64,000 nucleotides of DNA from a virus: IMG/VR virus record IMGVR_UViG_3300021963_000041, positions 62,001 to 126,000 of that record. One strand, given 5' to 3'. The notes under the pieces are model-generated. The model did not search any database. It was not told the DNA's origin and was given only the letters and a program-made list of their open reading frames with translations. Made by a program: the position numbers and the translations under genes. Below, piece by piece: positions 30,242-47,234 of the stretch; the first letter of the stretch is position 1, and each line of letters starts with the position of its first letter.

Positions 30242-31852
30242 TTAGATGTTGTTCAATTGACCAACATAAACTTTACCATAGAACTCAGGACGAGTAACAA
30301 CTTTCGCGTAGCGAGTCATCACACCACGACGTGGGATGAAGTTGTTAGGATCGTACACTAGAGGAGTAAGCATTAATGGAACGTAAGGAGCATAAACTGC
30401 ACCAGTTTCCAAGAATTGGTTACCTCTGAAGCCCATCAATACAGTGTTTTCTTGCATGTAAGGGTTTTTGTACACTTGGTAGCGGCTAGTTAAAGCACCT
30501 ACTTTTTGAACACCCATTGCATACTTCATTTTCTCACCATCACCATCTGCAGCATATCCAGGGATAGACTCAAGAATAGTAGACACGTTAGGAGAACATA
30601 CTAGGAAGTTTGCACCACCACGTAATGTCTTAGCGTGAATTTGGTTAGAAACTTTTTGCAATTTAGTTCCTAGAGTAGAGAACCAAGTACCTTGTACATA
30701 TGCGTTACCGCTTACGTTAGGATCAGCAATGAATGCAGAACCATTCCAAACCTCGTTTGTACGTGCAGACCAGTATTCAGTAGTGTCAGCAGCAGCGATC
30801 AACATATCTAGGATCTCTAAGTCAATTTCCATAGAAACGTACTCAGATAACATAGCTGTTAATTCAGCTTCAGCATCTACAGAGTGGTATGCGTTAAGGT
30901 CTTGTGCAAATTCTGGAGTCCAGCTTGCTTTCAACTTACGAGTCTTAGCAGTCACTGGAATAGAACGCATTTGCAATTCGATCTCAGGGATGTTAAGGTT
31001 GGTATCTAATGTACGGCCGTTAGCAGTTTCGAAGTCGCTACGAGCGTCATTAGTAGGTTGGATAGAGTAGCTAACAGCAGCAGTTGCCCATGAACCAGTT
31101 GTGATAGCAGAGTTTGCTACAACGAAGATCAAGTCGTTACCAGACTTCTTAGTGAATGCAGGGAAGTATCCAGTACCAGCAGTTAATGCAGTTGAACCAG
31201 AGAATGGTTGGAATGCACGAACAGCGTATTGGTCAGCTTTAGATTCAGTAGCGAAGAATCCTGTGAAAGTCACAGTACGGTAGCTAGAAAGTGAACCAGT
31301 AAAGTCACCATCGTAGTTAACAGAAGCAGCAGTAGCTGAACCTGAAGTTACGAACAATGCACCTGGGTTTGCAGATACTACACCATTAGATGAGAATCCG
31401 AAACGACCTGCACCATAAAGACCATCTTTAGGAGCACCAGTACCGTTAGTAACACCCTGAAGTGTACCAGTTTGGTTTTGACCAGTTGGATCGTATCCAA
31501 AAGGAGCTTTGTTAGTACCATATTTGAAGTCTAAGTAGAATACTAGACCAGAAGGTAAGTTCATTGGCTGAACGCTAACGAATTCTTTAGCTGAAATCTC
31601 AGCAAAGATACGACGTACCAATGGAAGAGCTACACCGTGGTATTGCTCATATCCGCTTGTACCTTGTCCTGCAGTAGATACAGATCCTTCTTTAATTAAT
31701 TGTTTTGCTTGGTTTTCCAAAAGGACAGCAACGGTTGATTTCTCGTTGTTCCCTTTCAAACCTTCTAAAAGGCCAGTTTTTGACCATTTAGAAATCAACG
31801 GCTTAACCTCTTGGGCGCGGTTGACATTTCCTAGGTTTTCGAATAAATTCAT
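30242..31852 (-). CDS. Major capsid protein (T4 gp23-like)
   Basis: A 536-residue protein, close to T4 gp23 (521). The N-terminal 55 residues are a charged delta-like region ending QAKQLIKE/GSVSTAGQG; the Ile-Lys-Glu/Gly at residues 53-56 fits the (Leu/Ile)-x-Glu cut site of gp21 proteases, so the mature protein probably starts at Gly56. GYEQYHGVALPLVRRIFAEI and PMNLPSGLVFYLDFKYG follow, both gp23 hallmarks, and the C-terminus has FIPRRGVMTRYAKVV. It follows the scaffold gene by 20 bases without a motif of its own and ends at the strongest terminator in the window. Codons are regular, as expected for high expression. Confidence 0.95.
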   Translation of the reverse strand: MNLFENLGNVNRAQEVKPLISKWSKTGLLEGLKGNNEKSTVAVLLENQAKQLIKEGSVSTAGQGTSGYEQYHGVALPLVRRIFAEISAKEFVSVQPMNLPSGLVFYLDFKYGTNKAPFGYDPTGQNQTGTLQGVTNGTGAPKDGLYGAGRFGFSSNGVVSANPGALFVTSGSATAASVNYDGDFTGSLSSYRTVTFTGFFATESKADQYAVRAFQPFSGSTALTAGTGYFPAFTKKSGNDLIFVVANSAITTGSWATAAVSYSIQPTNDARSDFETANGRTLDTNLNIPEIELQMRSIPVTAKTRKLKASWTPEFAQDLNAYHSVDAEAELTAMLSEYVSMEIDLEILDMLIAAADTTEYWSARTNEVWNGSAFIADPNVSGNAYVQGTWFSTLGTKLQKVSNQIHAKTLRGGANFLVCSPNVSTILESIPGYAADGDGEKMKYAMGVQKVGALTSRYQVYKNPYMQENTVLMGFRGNQFLETGAVYAPYVPLMLTPLVYDPNNFIPRRGVMTRYAKVVTRPEFYGKVYVGQLNNI

Positions 31853-34429: not shown

Positions 34430-35050
34430 TTACATTATTGAGATTATATCACTAATAAGTGAGTTCACTTTATTGTATTTGTTGTTGTTGCTGGCACCAT
34501 GAGATACACCCTCGTTTAGGTTATCCATAAAAGCACCTTGTGTTGATGGATTAGATACTAAATCCCAACAAACGATTTCAAAATCATCTTGCACTTCTAC
34601 TCTACCCTCTCCTAGATTCTTAACAGAACCCATACCACGAGAGCTAATACCTAAGCGGATACCCGCTTTTAAAAGTTCTTTGGCAATGTTTCCAGATGGT
34701 GTAGATAGAATTTCAATTCTACCCATCAAGTCATTACCTTCCCACCACAAATCTAAGATATTGTGTGATACGTTTGCTAAGTTGACTACAGATGATTCTG
34801 GGTGATCTAATTCTCCTAATGCTCTACGCTCAGCTACAAATACTTTTTTGTATTTTTCACACTCACGCTTTAGAATAGGCATTGGATAGCTTCTACCATT
34901 TTGGTTAAAGTTCTTATCCATATTTGAACTACCTCTCTGCATGACACCGCTTACGATCAACTTGCCACTATTTTGGCTAATTGATTCGTTAATCTGCTCT
35001 GGTGTAAATTGTAAAGAGCCTATGAAGTCAACTATTACTTGCTTGCTCAT
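34430..35050 (-). CDS. Prohead maturation protease (T4 gp21-like)
   Basis: A 206-residue protein, near the size of T4 gp21 (212). The herpesvirus-type serine protease triad can be placed: ALGELDHPE (His83), GIRLGISSRGMGSV (Ser136 or Ser137) and VCWDLVSNPST (Asp163). NRNGRSYP-like FNQNGRSYPMPIL lies upstream of the His motif, as usual. It would cut the scaffold, capsid protein N-termini and other prohead proteins after (Leu/Ile)-x-Glu. Overlaps the previous gene by four bases (ATGA). Confidence 0.93.
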   Translation of the reverse strand: MSKQVIVDFIGSLQFTPEQINESISQNSGKLIVSGVMQRGSSNMDKNFNQNGRSYPMPILKRECEKYKKVFVAERRALGELDHPESSVVNLANVSHNILDLWWEGNDLMGRIEILSTPSGNIAKELLKAGIRLGISSRGMGSVKNLGEGRVEVQDDFEIVCWDLVSNPSTQGAFMDNLNEGVSHGASNNNKYNKVNSLISDIISIM

Positions 35051-38541: not shown

Positions 38542-40113
38542 TCAAAGAAGCCATCCCATGTCCTCATTGTTCCCTTTATTGTCCGTCATATTCCACGGAT
38601 TATTAGTTTGGGCTCTAGTATACACAGCTACGGTCGATTTGATATTATTTACTGCCACTCGGTTAATTTCTATACCTGCTTGTCTAAGTTTCAATGCTGT
38701 ATCTCTGACCCACAACCCTTGACCAAAACACATGACCAAGTCATCGTTATAGCCTTGAGCTGCTTCAGCTCTACCAGCTCTCCATATGAATACATACAAC
38801 TCATCAAGCAAGCGCTTACTACGTATTATACAACTATTTTCACGGATAAACAACTCTAGTTTAGAAATAACTAAAGGTCTTGTTTTATGTGACATTGTAA
38901 ACCCTGCAACCATGTCAGTTTTAGATGCTAAGTCATATCCCTTAGTTAGGAACTTGTCTGAGTCTAATGCATCTTGTTTATATGTGTAATATAAATTTGG
39001 ATAGTTCCTATCAATAACTTGCTGAATTGCTGCCCATCCTACGTTAGCGTTCTCCACAACTAGCAATGCATTGTTCCACTCTGTTGCTGCAGCTACTAGT
39101 AAATTACCGAAATCTTTTGTTCCAACCTGACCTTTATATTCTGCTACCTGGCGACATGATTCAACCTCAACAACATGGAAAGCAGAGTAGTCACTACCAT
39201 CTCCACGAGCAACGTCGGCAGATAGGATATAGTTTTTTGTGTAGTCTGGAAACTCCCATACCCAGTAGTTACCATCAAAACCTCTCTTCTCAATTGGATC
39301 TTGAGCATAGGTCTGCATGTAGTATGTAATGAGCTCTGGTGATACGACAGTATTACCTGATGTACTAAAGTCACAGTCACACTCCTGAGCTGCAAGTCTT
39401 AAACCAAGCTCAGCATCTTGTCGATCTCTCCATGTTTGATCCCTCTCAGGATGCACTTGCCATGGAAGTCGTAGAGTCTTAAACTTATTCTCACCTGCTT
39501 CTGCTTTAGTCCACATTTTGTGGAAGAAGTTACCAGTACCATTAGGAGTTGATAACAAGATACCTTGACCACCCGTACTCAATGTTTGTTGTAGTGATGC
39601 CCATAGTTCTTCTGCTCCATCAACGAAAGCTGCCTCATCAATAATAACTAACGATAACGCTTCTGAACGTCCTGATGTTCCTGTACTCGATACGGCTTTG
39701 ATTTGTGATCCGTTTGAAAGTCTCATTGAAAGCTTGTTACTCTCAACCGCCTTCAGCTTTAACCAACTAGGTAAATTATCAAACATCACTCGCACCTTTG
39801 TTACAAGGTTCTTAGATGTGTTCTGGTCAATCGCAACTACAAGTACGTTCTTATCATTTTGGAATAGAATCATCCAAAGTGCATAACCTGCAATAAGTGT
39901 TGAGATACCTAGCTGTCTAGATTTTAAAATGATAACCCTGTCGTTATCTTGAAACTCTTGTAACGAGTCTTCTTGGTAAGGATAAAGATGAAATGGAATT
40001 TTTCCCTTAGTGGGGTGCTGAATCATACAATACTTCTTCATGAAGTAAGTTGCTGACTTTGCACACTTTAGGTACTCCTCCTTGATTATATCTTTTAAAG
40101 TCTTTTCTGACAT
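38542..40113 (-). CDS. Terminase large subunit (T4 gp17-like)
   Basis: A 523-residue protein. The ATPase half shows ILKSRQLGIST (residues 62-72, Walker A-like), SLVIIDEAAF with Walker B at 156-160 and the coupling motif STPNG at 188-192. The nuclease half shows SADVARGDGSDYS (Asp300), LVVENANVG (Glu354) and GYNDDLVMCFG, the three acidic groups of the RNase H-like fold. It pumps DNA into the prohead and cuts it when full. Somewhat shorter than T4 gp17 (610). No small terminase subunit was recognised in the window. Confidence 0.95.
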   Translation of the reverse strand: MSEKTLKDIIKEEYLKCAKSATYFMKKYCMIQHPTKGKIPFHLYPYQEDSLQEFQDNDRVIILKSRQLGISTLIAGYALWMILFQNDKNVLVVAIDQNTSKNLVTKVRVMFDNLPSWLKLKAVESNKLSMRLSNGSQIKAVSSTGTSGRSEALSLVIIDEAAFVDGAEELWASLQQTLSTGGQGILLSTPNGTGNFFHKMWTKAEAGENKFKTLRLPWQVHPERDQTWRDRQDAELGLRLAAQECDCDFSTSGNTVVSPELITYYMQTYAQDPIEKRGFDGNYWVWEFPDYTKNYILSADVARGDGSDYSAFHVVEVESCRQVAEYKGQVGTKDFGNLLVAAATEWNNALLVVENANVGWAAIQQVIDRNYPNLYYTYKQDALDSDKFLTKGYDLASKTDMVAGFTMSHKTRPLVISKLELFIRENSCIIRSKRLLDELYVFIWRAGRAEAAQGYNDDLVMCFGQGLWVRDTALKLRQAGIEINRVAVNNIKSTVAVYTRAQTNNPWNMTDNKGNNEDMGWLL

Positions 40114-41691: not shown

Positions 41692-42099
41692 TTATTTTTT
41701 ATTTTGGTTCGACCTTACAGAAATCACTTTCTGCATATGCTCTCTCACAAGTTTGCGTACTTGCTCTTGCAATTTACCTTGCTCATAAGCCTCCACTTCT
41801 TGCTCCAGTTGATTGAAGTCTTCTATGTCGGCTGTGCGAACAAATTCAACAGCTCTTCGAAAGGTTTTGAAGTTTAGTTGATCCATTAACTTTGGATCAC
41901 GAAATATTTTACGAAGTAGTTCTCTTACACCAACAGAGTTTATAGTCAATTCGTTTACACTCTCGTTTGCGTTAAGATGTAAAGCTGCTAAATATTTACG
42001 CAATGCTTCTTTGTTGCCATCTGTGCAACCTACCTTCTCACCACCATCTTTTTTGTAGACGCAGTATTGATCTCCGACCTTTCTAGCTGTATATGGCAT
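41692..42099 (-). CDS. Small protein with N-terminal zinc-free CVYKKD-type domain
   Basis: A 135-residue protein. The first 45 residues, with KVGDQYCVYKKDGGEKVGCT then KEALRKYLAALHLNANES, form a unit I recall in several phage proteins. The C-terminal 90 residues are helical and charged (ELLRKIFRDPKLMDQLNF, QVRKLVREHMQKV). It overlaps the ParB-like gene by one base. Function unknown. Confidence 0.6.
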   Translation of the reverse strand: MPYTARKVGDQYCVYKKDGGEKVGCTDGNKEALRKYLAALHLNANESVNELTINSVGVRELLRKIFRDPKLMDQLNFKTFRRAVEFVRTADIEDFNQLEQEVEAYEQGKLQEQVRKLVREHMQKVISVRSNQNKK

Positions 42100-43118
42100 T
42101 ATGCTTTTCCTTTTTTGATTGCTTCCTTAAGCATCTTATCAATTGCTTTGGTTGCTGATTCTTTAAATGGTTCTTTGAAGTTAATCTCACCTGATTGGAA
42201 AGCTGTGTTAACAGTTGCTTGAGTTGTCTTATCTCCAGACTTACCTGCTTGTGGCATAATTGTTCGTGGATAAGGTCCTTTCATTTTGATAATAAGTGCG
42301 TGTGACTTACCGATATACTTAGCTACAGCTGCTCTATTTTTAGCATCAGCAGCATCTCGATCGTTGTTAGGTACTTTTAATCCCACCTTTGTAAAAATCT
42401 CAGGAGCATATTTTGCAAACTTTTGAACTTCTGCTTTACCTATGTTTTCTGTAACATATTTTATCACCTCTTCAGTGCTAGTAGCCATTAAATCCTTTCC
42501 TTCGAAAGGTTTAGTAACAACTTTTCCTGCTTTTGCTGCGATTGCTAATTGCATTGCTTTAAGTGCATCTTCTGCACCCATTCCTGCTGGAGCTTTCATA
42601 ATGTCGCACATCATTTGAGCTTTTGGATTAATCATAAAGCAAAGTGACCATCTATGATGTCCATCTAAGATTGCTACTTGACCATCCACTTCAGCGCACA
42701 ATACTGGAATCTTTCCATCTGGTGATGGCATCTTTACTGGATTAGTAAAAGCTGCATCAATAGCTCCATACTTGTCATTGATAATATCATCAAGGCTGTT
42801 TCCGAATCCTATTTCTGCTTGTGTTGGAAACATTTTAGTTGCAGCAATTGGTGTAGTATTAAACGGCACTTTTTCATCTTCTGGTTGACCATCTTCAGTA
42901 CCTTTGTTAGCAGCTGCTTTGAACTCTGCATCCGATGCTTTAGCTTTTAAGTCAGCTACAGCACCAGCAAGATCTTTATCCATTGCTTTTTTCAAATCAT
43001 CTGCTGCATCCTCTATAATAAGGAGTCTGTGCATTTCTGTGTTGTAATAGTCTTCAGAAATGACTCTGGCTTTCAATTGCCAGTCTAATTTTTGTTTTAA
43101 GTCTTTTACGTTTGCCAT
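42099..43118 (-). CDS. ParB/sulfiredoxin-like domain protein
   Basis: A 339-residue protein. Residues about 100-165 contain FGNSLDDIINDKYGAID and VDGQVAILDGHHRWSLCFMI; the Asp-Gly-His-His-Arg-Trp core is the signature of ParB/Srx-type folds (VxDGHHR). The N-terminal 80 residues are helical, and the C-terminal half is Ala/Lys-rich and helical. ParB-like domains in phages can be nucleases, nucleotide-dependent clamps or modification enzymes; nothing here decides which. It starts with its own TATTTATA motif 14 bases upstream and leads a group of small head-region genes. Confidence 0.65.
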   Translation of the reverse strand: MANVKDLKQKLDWQLKARVISEDYYNTEMHRLLIIEDAADDLKKAMDKDLAGAVADLKAKASDAEFKAAANKGTEDGQPEDEKVPFNTTPIAATKMFPTQAEIGFGNSLDDIINDKYGAIDAAFTNPVKMPSPDGKIPVLCAEVDGQVAILDGHHRWSLCFMINPKAQMMCDIMKAPAGMGAEDALKAMQLAIAAKAGKVVTKPFEGKDLMATSTEEVIKYVTENIGKAEVQKFAKYAPEIFTKVGLKVPNNDRDAADAKNRAAVAKYIGKSHALIIKMKGPYPRTIMPQAGKSGDKTTQATVNTAFQSGEINFKEPFKESATKAIDKMLKEAIKKGKA

Positions 43119-43604: not shown

Positions 43605-44212
43605 TATTTTTTATTTAAGTGTGTATCTAATACACCGCCAATGGCAGTTGCATGATTTGCAAGATGATTGATATCTTCCATACCAAGCTTAGTTTTTCTT
43701 TTTGTATAATCTAGACCCATAATAGCTATAAATTTACCATCAATATTCTTAACAGCAAAAATATACTCGGATCTACAACCTGACTCTTCAGCTACATATT
43801 TCAATCCCCATGTTGCAATAGACTCATCTTTAAAGTCAGCAATCTCAATAATATCATTTTCTAATAGTTGATTGATAAATCGTGAAAATAAGCTGACAGG
43901 TATATTTTGAAAGTTGGTTTGGATTGATGTAGCTCCTGCTGAAACAACCTCATACACTACGCTAAATTTAGCAATGCTTTTTCCGGTTGGATAGAAATGA
44001 CCTCCATTATGAAATTGTGATATCCAAACTCGATCTGCACCAAATTCATCACGGATATGCTCCATCTTTGCAAGCACCTTCTCACTAGTTTCTAACGCTT
44101 CTTGAACCATATCGGTTTTTTTCTTACGTCGTTCTATAATATACCGAGTGACTAACACCACGATAGGTCCCAATACGCCAGTTAGGAAGGCTGCTACAAT
44201 CGCTGAATCCAT
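43604..44212 (-). CDS. Membrane-anchored GAF-like domain protein
   Basis: A 202-residue protein. Residues 4-22 (IVAAFLTGVLGPIVVLVTRY) form one membrane segment followed by a basic patch (IERRKKK) and a short coiled coil. Residues about 55-195 resemble a GAF sensor domain: DRVWISQFHNGGHFYPTGKS, then YVAEESGCRSEYIFAVKN and GKFIAIMGLDYTKRK. GAF domains bind small ligands. I know of similar phage proteins but not of a tested function. It is overlapped at both ends by neighbours. Confidence 0.65.
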   Translation of the reverse strand: MDSAIVAAFLTGVLGPIVVLVTRYIIERRKKKTDMVQEALETSEKVLAKMEHIRDEFGADRVWISQFHNGGHFYPTGKSIAKFSVVYEVVSAGATSIQTNFQNIPVSLFSRFINQLLENDIIEIADFKDESIATWGLKYVAEESGCRSEYIFAVKNIDGKFIAIMGLDYTKRKTKLGMEDINHLANHATAIGGVLDTHLNKK

Positions 44213-44715
44213 TACTTTTCTCTTATTTCTTTTATGTTTTGTTCTAGTTTTTCAACCACTTGGGTTTTTATTTCTTCTAAATGATCTTGGCTGACATCTT
44301 TCCATCTCTCAACCATACCATCTTCAGTAACATTAGAACTAGAAACACTATCACTCATGTAGTCCTTCATATAAGATTCAAAGTCTTTCAAAAACGCTTC
44401 AGCGTTATTTAGCATTACTTGCTTCTCATAATCAGCCCACTCACCACTCTTCATCATTTTGTGATCGTTATCAATCACACACTCAAAACAGCTTTTATGT
44501 GTAGACCAAGCTTTTTCATCTAAATGATGTTTCATAGCCTTTCCACAACTAGGACATGCTAATGGAGTTAGTAACTCCTTTCTAGCTGCCTCCATCTTTG
44601 AGATGGTTCTTTTTATACCATTCTTAATGGTCCATAACTTTCCTTGCTCTTCCCATACATCACCTTCAATACGTTTTGTATATTTAGAGTCTGTCGTAAC
44701 AAATAAATCTCTCAT
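44212..44715 (-). CDS. Zinc-ribbon protein
   Basis: A 167-residue protein. Residues 54-80 contain LACPSCGKAMKHHLDEKAW and a second pair in SCFECVID, a four-cysteine zinc ribbon. The flanks are helical: N-terminal GKLWTIKNGIKRTISKME and a C-terminal charged coiled coil (LEEIKTQVVEKLEQNIKEIR). It overlaps the 104-residue gene by 4 bases and the GAF gene by 1. Similar proteins occur in T4-like marine phages; function not known to me. Confidence 0.65.
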   Translation of the reverse strand: MRDLFVTTDSKYTKRIEGDVWEEQGKLWTIKNGIKRTISKMEAARKELLTPLACPSCGKAMKHHLDEKAWSTHKSCFECVIDNDHKMMKSGEWADYEKQVMLNNAEAFLKDFESYMKDYMSDSVSSSNVTEDGMVERWKDVSQDHLEEIKTQVVEKLEQNIKEIREK

Positions 44716-45026
44716 CGTGCTTGTAACTTGTATTTTTCAATTACGAATTGTACATTCTTATCAAATTTACGCAAAGCTCTACGAAGCTCTAGTCGTACAC
44801 CTTCGGCTAATTTAGCACTCTCATTACTATCACCAACTGATCGGAAAAACTCTTTTCCACCAACTGACGAAATACTAATCGTAAAGCTAAATTCTGGGCT
44901 TCCCTCTTCTCCTACGTTTTTGAAATCTGCATCGTAGTGTAGGGTCATGTTTGTGCTAGGTGAAGATGCAATAGCCTCTTTCTTTTCTTCTAGCTTTTGG
45001 TTTTCAAGTAATTTCTTTAGTTTCAT
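44712..45026 (-). CDS. Small conserved protein of unknown function
   Basis: A 104-residue protein. It starts with a charged helix (KLKKLLENQKLEEKKEAIAS) with a Leu-Leu-Glu site, then a beta segment (NMTLHYDADFKNVGEEGSPE, FSFTISISSVGG) and an amphipathic C-terminal helix. No family recognised. It starts 3 bases after the stop of the nucleotidyltransferase-ligase gene and is therefore in the same operon. Confidence 0.55.
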   Translation of the reverse strand: MKLKKLLENQKLEEKKEAIASSPSTNMTLHYDADFKNVGEEGSPEFSFTISISSVGGKEFFRSVGDSNESAKLAEGVRLELRRALRKFDKNVQFVIEKYKLQAR

Positions 45027-45029
45027 TTT

Positions 45030-47234
45030 TTAGAATTTTAAGTACCCTAGAATCTGATTGATTGGTGCAAATGCTCCAGTCAGCTTGTAAAGTTTTCCGT
45101 TATATTTAAACACAATACCTTCTAAAGGTACAATAGCTTTAAAACCTCCAATATCTTTAAGTCGTGTTAACTCTCTTTTCAAAAACTGTAAAGAGGCATC
45201 ATCATCTGACATCTCAGGGGTTTGTGCAGCTGCTTGTATTTTAGCAATTGCATCTTCAAGATCCTTATTGATCTGTCTAACAGTATCATTAGGATTCAAA
45301 GACACTAATTGCGAAACATTCTTTAATGTATAAACTCCTAGTTTAAGGAATACCGTCTCTAGAGGTTTTATGCATATCTTCTTTTGAACACCATACTCCT
45401 TTTTATCGAAATTTACAACCCAATTTTTGAAGTCCTCGTTATCAATACCATCACGGATAACCTTGATGTTAATATCTTTGAGTGAGTAAGCCCAACGATT
45501 GATTAGTTGTTGTAAGGTGTTGGCTGGGATCTCGTAACCATACTGCTTTGCAGTGTTCTTCAAATAGTTTGTCCACCAAGCTTGGATGTACACACTAATT
45601 TTATCATCTTCCTTTAACTTATATTGCTCTCTAAGCTTTCTAAGCGCTTGATGCAATTCGTCACGCTGTCTTTCGTAATCTGCAGACTTATTGATTGTGA
45701 TTGGATCGGTTACGCGGATCTCGTATGTTTTTTGATTTTGAGCTTCAATTTGTCTAAGAGCTCCATCCAACTTATGTACAGCATCCGTGTCAGTATTTAC
45801 AACATTCCCTGCTGGATCGTATTCTGTAATGTTGTGTAGTCTCAGCTGAGTAGCTCCATAAGGAATTACGTTAGCTGTTTCTGGATACAACACTTCAAAG
45901 TTTACAAACTTCTTTCCATTTTGGAAGAACTCTTCTTTTTGTTCTGGTGTAAGTTTATTGATTGCTGCTTCCAGATCCTTCATTGCTTCTCCAAAAGCTG
46001 CTTGAATAGCACCACGTCCTGCAAACATATCTTCAACCTGCTTAACAGTTAGAGATGTTGCACCTGCATCTTTTAAATGCCCTTTGTTTCTAGCTGCACG
46101 GACTTTACCATCTTTGTAGGTAGCCATAAGGTTTTGACCATCCAACTTCTCTTGTGCATATTCAACCTTACCACTCAAAGCTGCATCAATCATACTGTTT
46201 GCATCTTTGAAAGTTAGATCATAGTCCTCGTAAGGGTGTGTCATGTGACCAGCGGCACCACCTTCTTTTAGAAGAGTACGCTCAAACAATGGAGCGGTTG
46301 TTGCTGCTTTATTTAAAAAGTTGTTTGGGATTGTGTATTTTTCTAAACGTAATAAGCGAATCAAAATGAAATAAATTGTTCCGCCTGGAAGAACACTAGC
46401 TGCAATAATGCCTGCTGTCTTCAATACGTCCTTCATCTGATTACCAATCTCCTCCTTTTCGGCATCAGTTAGTGTCTTTTTACCTTGAGCAGCTTGAGCT
46501 AACATAACAAAAGCTTCTTTAGTCTCTCTACTCTCAGCAGCTATCGATCTCAAGAAAGCTTGAAATCGTGAACTCATTTTTTTCACAATAGCAGAAAGAT
46601 CAACCTCTTGTAATGGTTGTCCTGGTGCTAATATTTTAAATACTGATTTGATAGTTGACTCGGAGATACCTGGGTAGTTTGTTTTGAAGTTGTCAAAGTT
46701 CTTTGCTGCTAAGTCTGCTCTCAAAGTTGATGCACTTAGACCTTGTCCGTTCAACTGATCAGTACGACCTTTGTATAAGATTGGTGATGTGTTCAATGAC
46801 AACTCAACAACATTAACACCTGGTCTATGATACTTTGCTCCTGCTGCGTGTCCGTCTACAAAACCCTTAACACGAGCGTAGTCGCTTCCTTTTGAACTAG
46901 CTCCTAGAGCATAAGTTCCTGCTGGAGCTTTTTCTACGAACTCGTAGGCTGCTCTCATTGGATTATCGTTTGGAGCTTGCTCTACTTTTATATTTGGAAT
47001 ACCACCTAATAAAAGCTTCCACACTTCCATGGATTGTTTCATAGTAATTCCATCACGCTCTTTTGGTCCAATCAGTATTCGCACTTCTGCTACACTAGGT
47101 AGTGCTGCGTAACGCTTTGCTAATTCCAAGTGACCACCATGAGGAGGTTTGAAACCACCTGGTAGCATTACAATTATTCCGGCTTCTGCCTCTCTTAATA
47201 CTCCTTCAACTAGGAATTTAGTAAGTTCATTCAT
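45030..47234 (-). CDS. Nucleotidyltransferase fused to a nucleic-acid-ligase-like domain
   Basis: A 734-residue protein. Residues 1-18 form a targeting-like helix (FLVEGVLREAEAG). Residues 20-205 are an adenylyl/cytidylyltransferase-type domain: LPGGFKPPHGGHLELAK (26-35 is the GxFxPxHxGH motif) and GLSASTLRADL (SxSxxR). Residues about 271-295 are hydrophobic. Residues 325-734 resemble an ATP-dependent ligase: EKLDGQNLM with Lys363 as candidate AMP-accepting lysine, RNKGHL, FVNFEVLYP (Glu447), and EGIVFK then YKLTG at 705-720. Ile/Leu-Lys-Glu/Gly at 322-325 (LLKEGG) matches the capsid protein cut site. Substrate unknown: NMN, a lipid head group or an RNA end are all possible. Confidence 0.75.
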   Translation of the reverse strand: MNELTKFLVEGVLREAEAGIIVMLPGGFKPPHGGHLELAKRYAALPSVAEVRILIGPKERDGITMKQSMEVWKLLLGGIPNIKVEQAPNDNPMRAAYEFVEKAPAGTYALGASSKGSDYARVKGFVDGHAAGAKYHRPGVNVVELSLNTSPILYKGRTDQLNGQGLSASTLRADLAAKNFDNFKTNYPGISESTIKSVFKILAPGQPLQEVDLSAIVKKMSSRFQAFLRSIAAESRETKEAFVMLAQAAQGKKTLTDAEKEEIGNQMKDVLKTAGIIAASVLPGGTIYFILIRLLRLEKYTIPNNFLNKAATTAPLFERTLLKEGGAAGHMTHPYEDYDLTFKDANSMIDAALSGKVEYAQEKLDGQNLMATYKDGKVRAARNKGHLKDAGATSLTVKQVEDMFAGRGAIQAAFGEAMKDLEAAINKLTPEQKEEFFQNGKKFVNFEVLYPETANVIPYGATQLRLHNITEYDPAGNVVNTDTDAVHKLDGALRQIEAQNQKTYEIRVTDPITINKSADYERQRDELHQALRKLREQYKLKEDDKISVYIQAWWTNYLKNTAKQYGYEIPANTLQQLINRWAYSLKDINIKVIRDGIDNEDFKNWVVNFDKKEYGVQKKICIKPLETVFLKLGVYTLKNVSQLVSLNPNDTVRQINKDLEDAIAKIQAAAQTPEMSDDDASLQFLKRELTRLKDIGGFKAIVPLEGIVFKYNGKLYKLTGAFAPINQILGYLKF

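Follow-up and report, generated by a model that had tools for sequence, protein, structure and literature searches.

A nucleotidyltransferase joined to a predicted RNA-ligase-like half in T4-like aquatic phages, and its possible delivery with the virion

The closest published idea to the protein described here is that of polyvalent proteins, multidomain phage polypeptides that unite disparate enzymes and for which packaging in the virion and injection along with the DNA have been predicted (Iyer et al., 2017; PMC5512222). Here we analyze a gene on the minus strand at 45030..47234 of a 64,000-nucleotide stretch of viral DNA (the window, bases 62001-126000 of the 127149-base virus record IMGVR_UViG_3300021963_000041), which encodes, as judged from the open reading frame (ORF) call and from relatives, a 734-aa protein with an ATG start. 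In this protein of a marine T4-like phage, a nucleotidyltransferase domain of the HIGH superfamily precedes a predicted RNA-ligase-like half, and both stand behind a short, capsid-targeting-like leader. The explanation that we favor, with modest confidence, is a head-packaged and injected early effector of the polyvalent type, which would seal cleaved RNA and make a dinucleotide cofactor, probably nicotinamide adenine dinucleotide (NAD).

Several described systems share parts of this design. Polyvalent proteins and the window family have in common kinase domains of the zeta-toxin-like kind and Pol-beta, ParB and peptidase domains; the consulted passages of PMC5512222 do not name RNA ligases or HIGH nucleotidyltransferases among the domains and mention RNA ligases separately, whereas a ligase is the constant C-terminal module of the window family. 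The window protein combines two disparate enzyme domains in one chain, as expected of a polyvalent protein. A Pfam search of it found no hallmark domain of the zincin metallopeptidase, ArdC or MuF kind, while Zn_protease matches one of 43 family members. T4 internal proteins and Alt possess a short leader of similar shape in the setting of a T4-type head and an S77 protease, but the cargo of the window protein is different and its packaging is a prediction. T4 Rnl1, archaeal RNA ligases and T4 Rnl2 share with the C-terminal half the nucleotidyltransferase fold and motifs I, III, IV and V, while the sequence similarity is subthreshold, about 210 residues are extra and no domain follows motif V. 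NadR, NadM and CoaD share with the N-terminal half the fold and the HxGH- and SxTxxR-type motifs, the window family differing in its fusion to a ligase-like half. Lastly, the T4-GC71 (DUF6267)/T4-GC190 pair of T4-like marine cyanophages sets a protein with KWDG and EGxV motifs beside a HIGH nucleotidyltransferase, although in the reverse order (ligase-like protein first) and, in S-SM1 and S-CAM4, as two genes. The literature searched, in which subscription journals were mostly outside coverage, held no description of the family or of a nucleotidyltransferase-ligase fusion, nor of a protein that adds to such a fusion a capsid-targeting-like leader and in which the ligase, of a new family, is the constant part at the C-terminus.

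The N-terminal domain (residues 19-206; 46617..47180, on the minus strand like every feature of the gene given below) was delimited by the predicted model and structure search. As an earlier note on this DNA had claimed, it keeps both nucleotidyltransferase motifs, visible in the sequence and in alignment columns: the HxGH-type GGFKPPHGGH (residues 26-35; 47130..47159) and the SxTxxR-type SASTLR (residues 167-172; 46719..46736) of the HIGH superfamily. In a structure search with the AlphaFold2 model of the whole protein (alignment A3; mean predicted local distance difference test score, pLDDT, 85.1), residues 18-207 matched CoaD (Z 14.2, 150 residues, root-mean-square deviation, rmsd, 2.7), and this half also matched NadM (Z 13.2) and NadD (Z 12.3); the modelled nucleotidyltransferase fold is almost certainly right. 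Conservation was assessed in alignment A4, consisting of 43 ORFs that were taken as complete because their start lies within the locus (the two copies of the window protein, L002 and L003, were left out; L015 and L016, near copies of each other, are both included). By motif columns the domain is present in 42 of the 43, and G26, P30, H35 and R172 are kept in 42, the only exception being L006, whose next gene encodes a domain of this type; in 18 members HxGH is replaced by GxHH with the last histidine retained. Profile searches with the window protein gave weak matches to the 'cytidyltransferase' family phrog_395 (E 0.0041) and, among PDB profiles, to phosphopantetheine adenylyltransferase (E 0.0085); the PDB profile searches with alignments A1 and A2 returned only chains taken as unrelated. 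The Pfam cut-off of CTP_transf_like is not reached by the window protein (26 of the 43 members match at E <= 0.01), and a search of the phage's own genome for this family was blank; thus, the family model misses the window protein.

The substrate of this half is unreadable from the fold, since the Z scores of CoaD and NadM differ by only about one unit. The comparison with NMNAT, proposed in the earlier note, upheld a HIGH fold and did not single out the nicotinamide mononucleotide (NMN) suggested there. We give NMN or nicotinic acid mononucleotide (NaMN) an even chance of being the substrate; NAD is favored over coenzyme A (CoA) because of the partner domains of the family and custom in the literature, and for no other reason. 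Two observations count against an NAD-restoring function: profile models of CoaD (phosphopantetheine) and of NMN/NaMN adenylyltransferases score alike (NMNAT models match 15 of the 43 members and CoaD models 14, the window protein matching the CoaD model below its cut-off), and no NAPRTase (NadV-type) gene was found in the record, which is possibly incomplete. It is also conceivable that NAD or CoA chemistry is all that the protein performs, with kinase, nucleotidyltransferase and Nudix domains cooperating as in NadR/NadM and with a regulatory or dead ligase half. NMN adenylyltransferases do occur joined to kinase or Nudix domains (PMC9503650), and both partner types are found here; however, the catalytic residues of the ligase half are invariant, and L006, with its separate ligase-like gene, shows that it is the N-terminal half that can be split off. 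We consider this explanation very improbable.

The C-terminal half (residues 326-734; 45033..46259), defined by predicted model and structure searches, contains in its alignments the ligase motifs I (EKLDG with Lys363, residues 362-366; 46137..46151), III (FVNFEVLY with Glu447, residues 443-450; 45885..45908), IV (PLEGIVFKY with Glu705, residues 703-711; 45102..45128; EGIVFK is 705-710) and V (YKLTG with Lys717, residues 716-720; 45075..45089). The KLDG lysine is thus Lys363, as numbered earlier, and the earlier note's FVNFEVLYP, EGIVFK and YKLTG are all present. That note had made its case depend on a nucleotidyltransferase pocket in this half and on conservation of Lys363, and on both points the results bear it out. 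Modelled alone (alignment A5, 40 rows; pLDDT 90.4, predicted template modelling score 0.87), the half has a predicted fold of the ligase type. In the VIA ranking against PDB, T4 Rnl1 takes first place (5tt6; Z 8.6 and rmsd 4.4 over 180 residues, chain positions 73-269 against model positions 12-418), with Naegleria RNA ligase, tRNA ligase Trl1, Rnl2 and others behind it. The top 39 rows consist entirely of covalent nucleotidyltransferases; an Hsp70 comes next, in row 40, at 5.9. Foldseek returns the same protein families, and a BFVD search yielded 17 matches at E <= 1e-3, including phage RnlA and the RM378 RNA ligase. In the VIA list for the whole model a single domain took up every row, so that the lack of ligases there does not count against the fold.

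Lys363, Asp365, Gly366, Arg382, Glu447, Glu705, Gly706 and Lys717 are invariant in all 43 complete members. For Lys363 this is partly built in, because one of the two patterns of the scan that supplied most relatives contained EK[LT]DG, although the lysine is also kept in relatives found without the pattern (L001, L002, L004, L005 and L006); the conservation of Glu447, Glu705 and Lys717 is free of such bias. Lys363 and Glu447 align with motifs I and III of T4 Rnl1 (hhalign), and motif IV aligns with that of the phage's own separate RNA ligase. A subthreshold match to Pfam RNA_ligase (PF09414) was obtained for two relatives only, being in L098 the sole match and located at motif I, and a match to phrog_562 (E 0.014) is subthreshold as well.

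The case for the ligase fold is weakened by the scores themselves: the best Foldseek E value against PDB is 1.4e-3, with none below 1e-3; hhalign scores T4 Rnl1 (19.2) slightly above T4 DNA ligase and NrdA (15.2 and 15.5); and the half falls under every Pfam and PHROG threshold, the window protein having no Pfam match at E <= 1, with no family-level sequence match to Rnl1 or Rnl2. Because the Foldseek score is modest, it is the agreement within the list, together with the motifs, that carries the claim. On this basis, a ligase fold is very probable, and the C-terminal half is, as modelled, a new family inside the known superfamily of covalent nucleotidyltransferases, nearest to RNA ligases. 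Identity as a DNA ligase was considered and rejected, DNA ligases being present but ranked under RNA ligases in the structure lists; no match pointed to an NAD-dependent ligase, for which no aimed search was made.

Known RNA ligases are expected to have a C-terminal specificity domain after motif V. The window protein stops 17 residues past Lys717 with no such domain, and its approximately 210 extra residues relative to Rnl1 lie, by motif positions, mostly in an insertion between motifs III and IV that is mainly helical in the predicted models (about residues 485-695; 45150..45782). Since the specificity domain is missing and the insertion unique, the acceptor cannot be read from homology, and the half could transfer AMP to another acceptor (a protein, a DNA nick or a cofactor), modifying targets, as T4 Alt does through different chemistry, and not repairing RNA. 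The lower entries of the structural list, which comprise DNA ligases and capping enzymes, are in keeping with this alternative. It is nevertheless improbable in our estimation, given that RNA ligases head the PDB lists and supply the named matches from outside the family near the top of the BFVD list, and that the partner domains of the family include a CCA-adding enzyme and AAA_33 kinases. Phage RNA ligases act alongside kinases, CCA-adding enzymes and RlaP Pol-beta enzymes (PMC7824862), and RNA repair is favored because these partner types recur here as fused domains. We consider RNA sealing by the C-terminal half reasonably likely; of the earlier proposal of a ligase for tRNA or nicks, it is the RNA ligase that the structural ranks of the model favor over a DNA ligase.

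Between the two halves lies the hydrophobic segment noted earlier (about residues 273-297; the most hydrophobic 19-mers begin at residues 273-279). Most of it falls inside an optional LETM1-related stretch (residues 231-293; 46356..46544) defined by a weak match to model NF040639 (E 4.6e-5, far under the curated cut-off), which matches 8 of the 43 complete members. The segment appears dispensable because three members of 625-628 aa (L009, L010 and L014) look, by length, too short to contain it.

The family is large and little studied. A tblastn search over 50,697 phage records matched 26, of which 23, mainly Lak phages, show similarity to the N-terminal half only; the other three (Microcystis phage Mel-JY01 and two uncultured phages) match the C-terminal half at 31-39% identity and are returned again with a different C-terminal half as query. 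The existence of these proteins argues that the C-terminal half is not a chance ORF. In an IMG/VR scan with two peptide patterns, at least 583 of at least 600 stretches encode a relative, and 80 loci were kept; in genome_contigs, 4 of 81 stretches do, all on contigs of metagenome-assembled genomes (MAGs), of which L097 and L099 look like phage contigs because terminase- and portal-like genes are present. An ORF search found 86 family ORFs in 87 loci.

Member architectures indicate that the ligase half is constant at the C-terminus while the part upstream is exchanged. The added domains are kinase, CCA-adding enzyme, Nudix, Pol-beta-like and ParB-like. Besides CTP_transf_like, Pfam matches at E <= 0.01 among the 43 complete members are AAA_33 (10), Zeta_toxin (10), PolyA_pol (2) and single cases of NUDIX, ROS_MUCR, ParB_N, ParBc_2 and Zn_protease, with a few weak others; a model of CCA tRNA nucleotidyltransferase matches among the members at E 1.7e-50. 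Regular expressions run over 84 ORFs, many of them incomplete, found P-loop (10), Nudix (3), ParB-like (3), Pol-beta-like (2) and CCA-like (2) motifs. The 1907-aa member at L097:835-6555, outside A4, joins PolyA_pol (E 1.5e-29) and CTP_transf_like domains to the ligase half; its contig, from a Flavobacteriales MAG, is probably a phage contig binned with its host. In L006 the ligase half is a protein by itself (421 aa), and the gene after it (653 aa; L006:7271-9229) ends in a CTP_transf_like domain and has, near its N-terminus, an ENLDGS stretch resembling motif I without its lysine. In L005 a ParB_N-like stretch is fused before the nucleotidyltransferase (E 0.00044), and in the window a ParB-like DGHHRW motif was seen by eye, with no Pfam match, at 42099-43118. 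A NadR-type kinase was rejected as the partner, only the AAA_33 and Zeta_toxin models having matched. The kinase partner is at most a candidate polynucleotide kinase: with T4 PseT the AAA_33 domain matched over the P-loop alone, and its PDB profile search returned no kinase.

The leader (residues 1-16, MNELTKFLVE/GVLRE; 47187..47234), a helix of low pLDDT, is capsid-targeting-like, with LxE at E10 and E15. The site of the T4 prohead protease is LxE or IxE. T4 leaders of 10-20 residues direct proteins to the prohead, and the gp21 protease cuts them off (PMC5694885); they are the sole common feature of a varied set of internal proteins (PMC3012670); in the T4 record, the starts of IPII, IPIII and Alt are MKTYQEFIAE and MELITELFDE, to be compared with MNELTKFLVE, MSSLSNYLVE and MNKLTEWLVK in the family. 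In 42 of the 43 complete members, LxE or IxE occurs with its E at residues 7-22, versus 13 of 52 window proteins (these 13 include the ligase-like protein itself and the protease), and the leader is retained before several different first domains while the remaining N-terminal region is exchanged. The background is 11% in random internal stretches.

The gene also sits in a head and packaging cluster. Window neighbors were searched for in 88 family loci (L002, L003 and L007 left out): downstream lies a gene whose CxxC...CxxC pattern looks by eye like a zinc finger (44212..44715, minus; in 86 of the 88), then the T4-type terminase large subunit (38542..40113, minus; in 80) and a T4-type portal (in 59). 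The three share the strand of the ligase gene and have median offsets from its stop of 4, 1238 and 2827 bases, respectively. The window further encodes, both on the minus strand, a T4-type prohead protease (Peptidase_S77, E 1.1e-26; 34430..35050), predicted to cut the leader, and a Gp23-type major capsid protein (30242..31852) with LxE or IxE at E30, E46 and E55, before the capsid domain (residue 69).

From these observations we infer the following course of events. The leader would carry the precursor into the prohead, the S77 protease would trim it after an LxE site, and the protein would enter the cell with the DNA, ahead of phage gene expression. There, the C-terminal half may move AMP from ATP onto Lys363 and seal RNA ends, most likely those left when defence RNases cleave RNAs of the host or the phage. 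The N-terminal half may adenylylate a small substrate that bears a phosphate, NMN or NaMN being the likeliest, so that NAD would be restored. The earlier note saw a compact counter-defence enzyme; its two enzyme folds hold, but delivery by the virion as an early effector is a better fit than ordinary expression because of the mosaic family, the head and packaging cluster and the capsid-targeting-like leader.

The same two enzymes could, on the other hand, constitute an ordinary late intracellular protein that repairs RNA and restores NAD without being packaged; the leader would then be a mere N-terminal helix, and the position in the head cluster would reflect late expression. This alternative, which we regard as unlikely, gains from the shortness of the leader similarity among members that are related. 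The following points weigh against packaging: 35% of shuffled leaders also carry the pattern; the leader counts are a description and not a test of independence, because the members share ancestry and the range of residues 7-22 was set after their leaders had been seen; the literature search found no mass spectrometry or assay of the window protein or a close relative; the S-PM2 cyanophage protein considered below has no such leader at its start; and detection of nucleotidyltransferases in cyanophage virions is possibly carry-over according to the authors of PMC10665884. Against a late unpackaged protein stand the retention of the leader before differing first domains while other N-terminal sequence is swapped, the S77 protease gene, and the T4-like leader on a relative of the first half that was detected in virions (PMC3037559). 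An RNA-repair enzyme made late would, in addition, act after most early defence. On balance, packaging in the virion head appears likely.

The cyanophage evidence is as follows. T4-GC190, annotated 'citidylyltransferase', is among the proteins detected in purified S-SM1 virions (Sullivan et al., PMC3037559), and the S-SM1 gene SSM1_190 (T4-GC190) begins MKKFSAFLNEAE, a T4-like leader. Cytidylyltransferase was also found in S-CREM2 virions (3 peptides), and NMNAT-like proteins are cited in virions of three further cyanophages (PMC10665884). In the BFVD search, the C-terminal half matched S-PM2 A0A0M6VVW4 (591 aa, 'Cytidyltransferase-like', E 1.6e-4), which by its name and length would correspond to the joined products of p141 (TTKWDGAPAV, QGDLL) and p142 (PEGFV, then a HIGH domain, T4-GC190) of NC_006820. 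In S-SM1 and S-CAM4, DUF6267 (E 1.6e-91 and 4.7e-124; T4-GC71 in S-SM1, phrog_455) and the cytidyltransferase follow each other in adjoining genes. DUF6267 proteins (L110:1296-2267, L111:1371-2573, L107:3026-3601) have a KWDG motif with a HIGH nucleotidyltransferase alongside, and those of intact frame have an EGxV motif. DUF6267 may be an unrecognised ligase-type family. When the ligase half of the window protein was compared in sequence with a DUF6267 protein, the result was not significant; a direct sequence link to the cyanophage proteins was set aside, none being significant and a 91-aa neighbor match being taken as chance.

Other genes of the phage and its relatives complete the picture. 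The same phage encodes an RNA_ligase gene (L088:1985-3106), an AAA_33 kinase gene (L088:3733-4131) and four tRNA genes (Arg, Glu, Leu, Leu; L088:14712-15284), a set of genes that points to the importance of RNA repair for this phage; because of the separate ligase gene, the window protein is not its only ligase. In the same phage, the window ORF at 44712-45026 starts MKLKKLLEN and that at L089:15283-15708 starts MKLRKLLEN, the rest being unrelated by eye; the shared start is perhaps a packaging leader. The window capsid protein shares 53.7% identity with its counterpart in Flavobacterium phage immuto. Upstream of the terminase, immuto has a 907-aa 'NadR' (gp088, L094:10122-12842) with Pol-beta-like and HIGH domains (Pfam support weak) and two HExxH stretches seen by eye; it looks like a polyvalent-type protein in a cultured phage.

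In the RNA repair known from phages, separate genes are expressed after infection. We tentatively propose that a widespread T4-like lineage of aquatic phages delivers, inside the virion, a single-chain kit for RNA sealing and cofactor synthesis, of which the DUF6267/T4-GC190 pair would be the two-gene version. If this is true, the exchange of domains adds RNA-end phosphorylation, CCA addition and nucleotide removal to the kit, repair of the cell precedes the first transcript of the phage, and DUF6267 is a previously unrecognised RNA-ligase family. The ligase half is itself a large family lying under Pfam thresholds, and DUF6267 is possibly a second one in cyanophages. A virion-delivered single-chain version would act at once when defence RNases or NADases strike, and it would give a testable reason for the presence of nucleotidyltransferases in the heads of aquatic T4-like phages.

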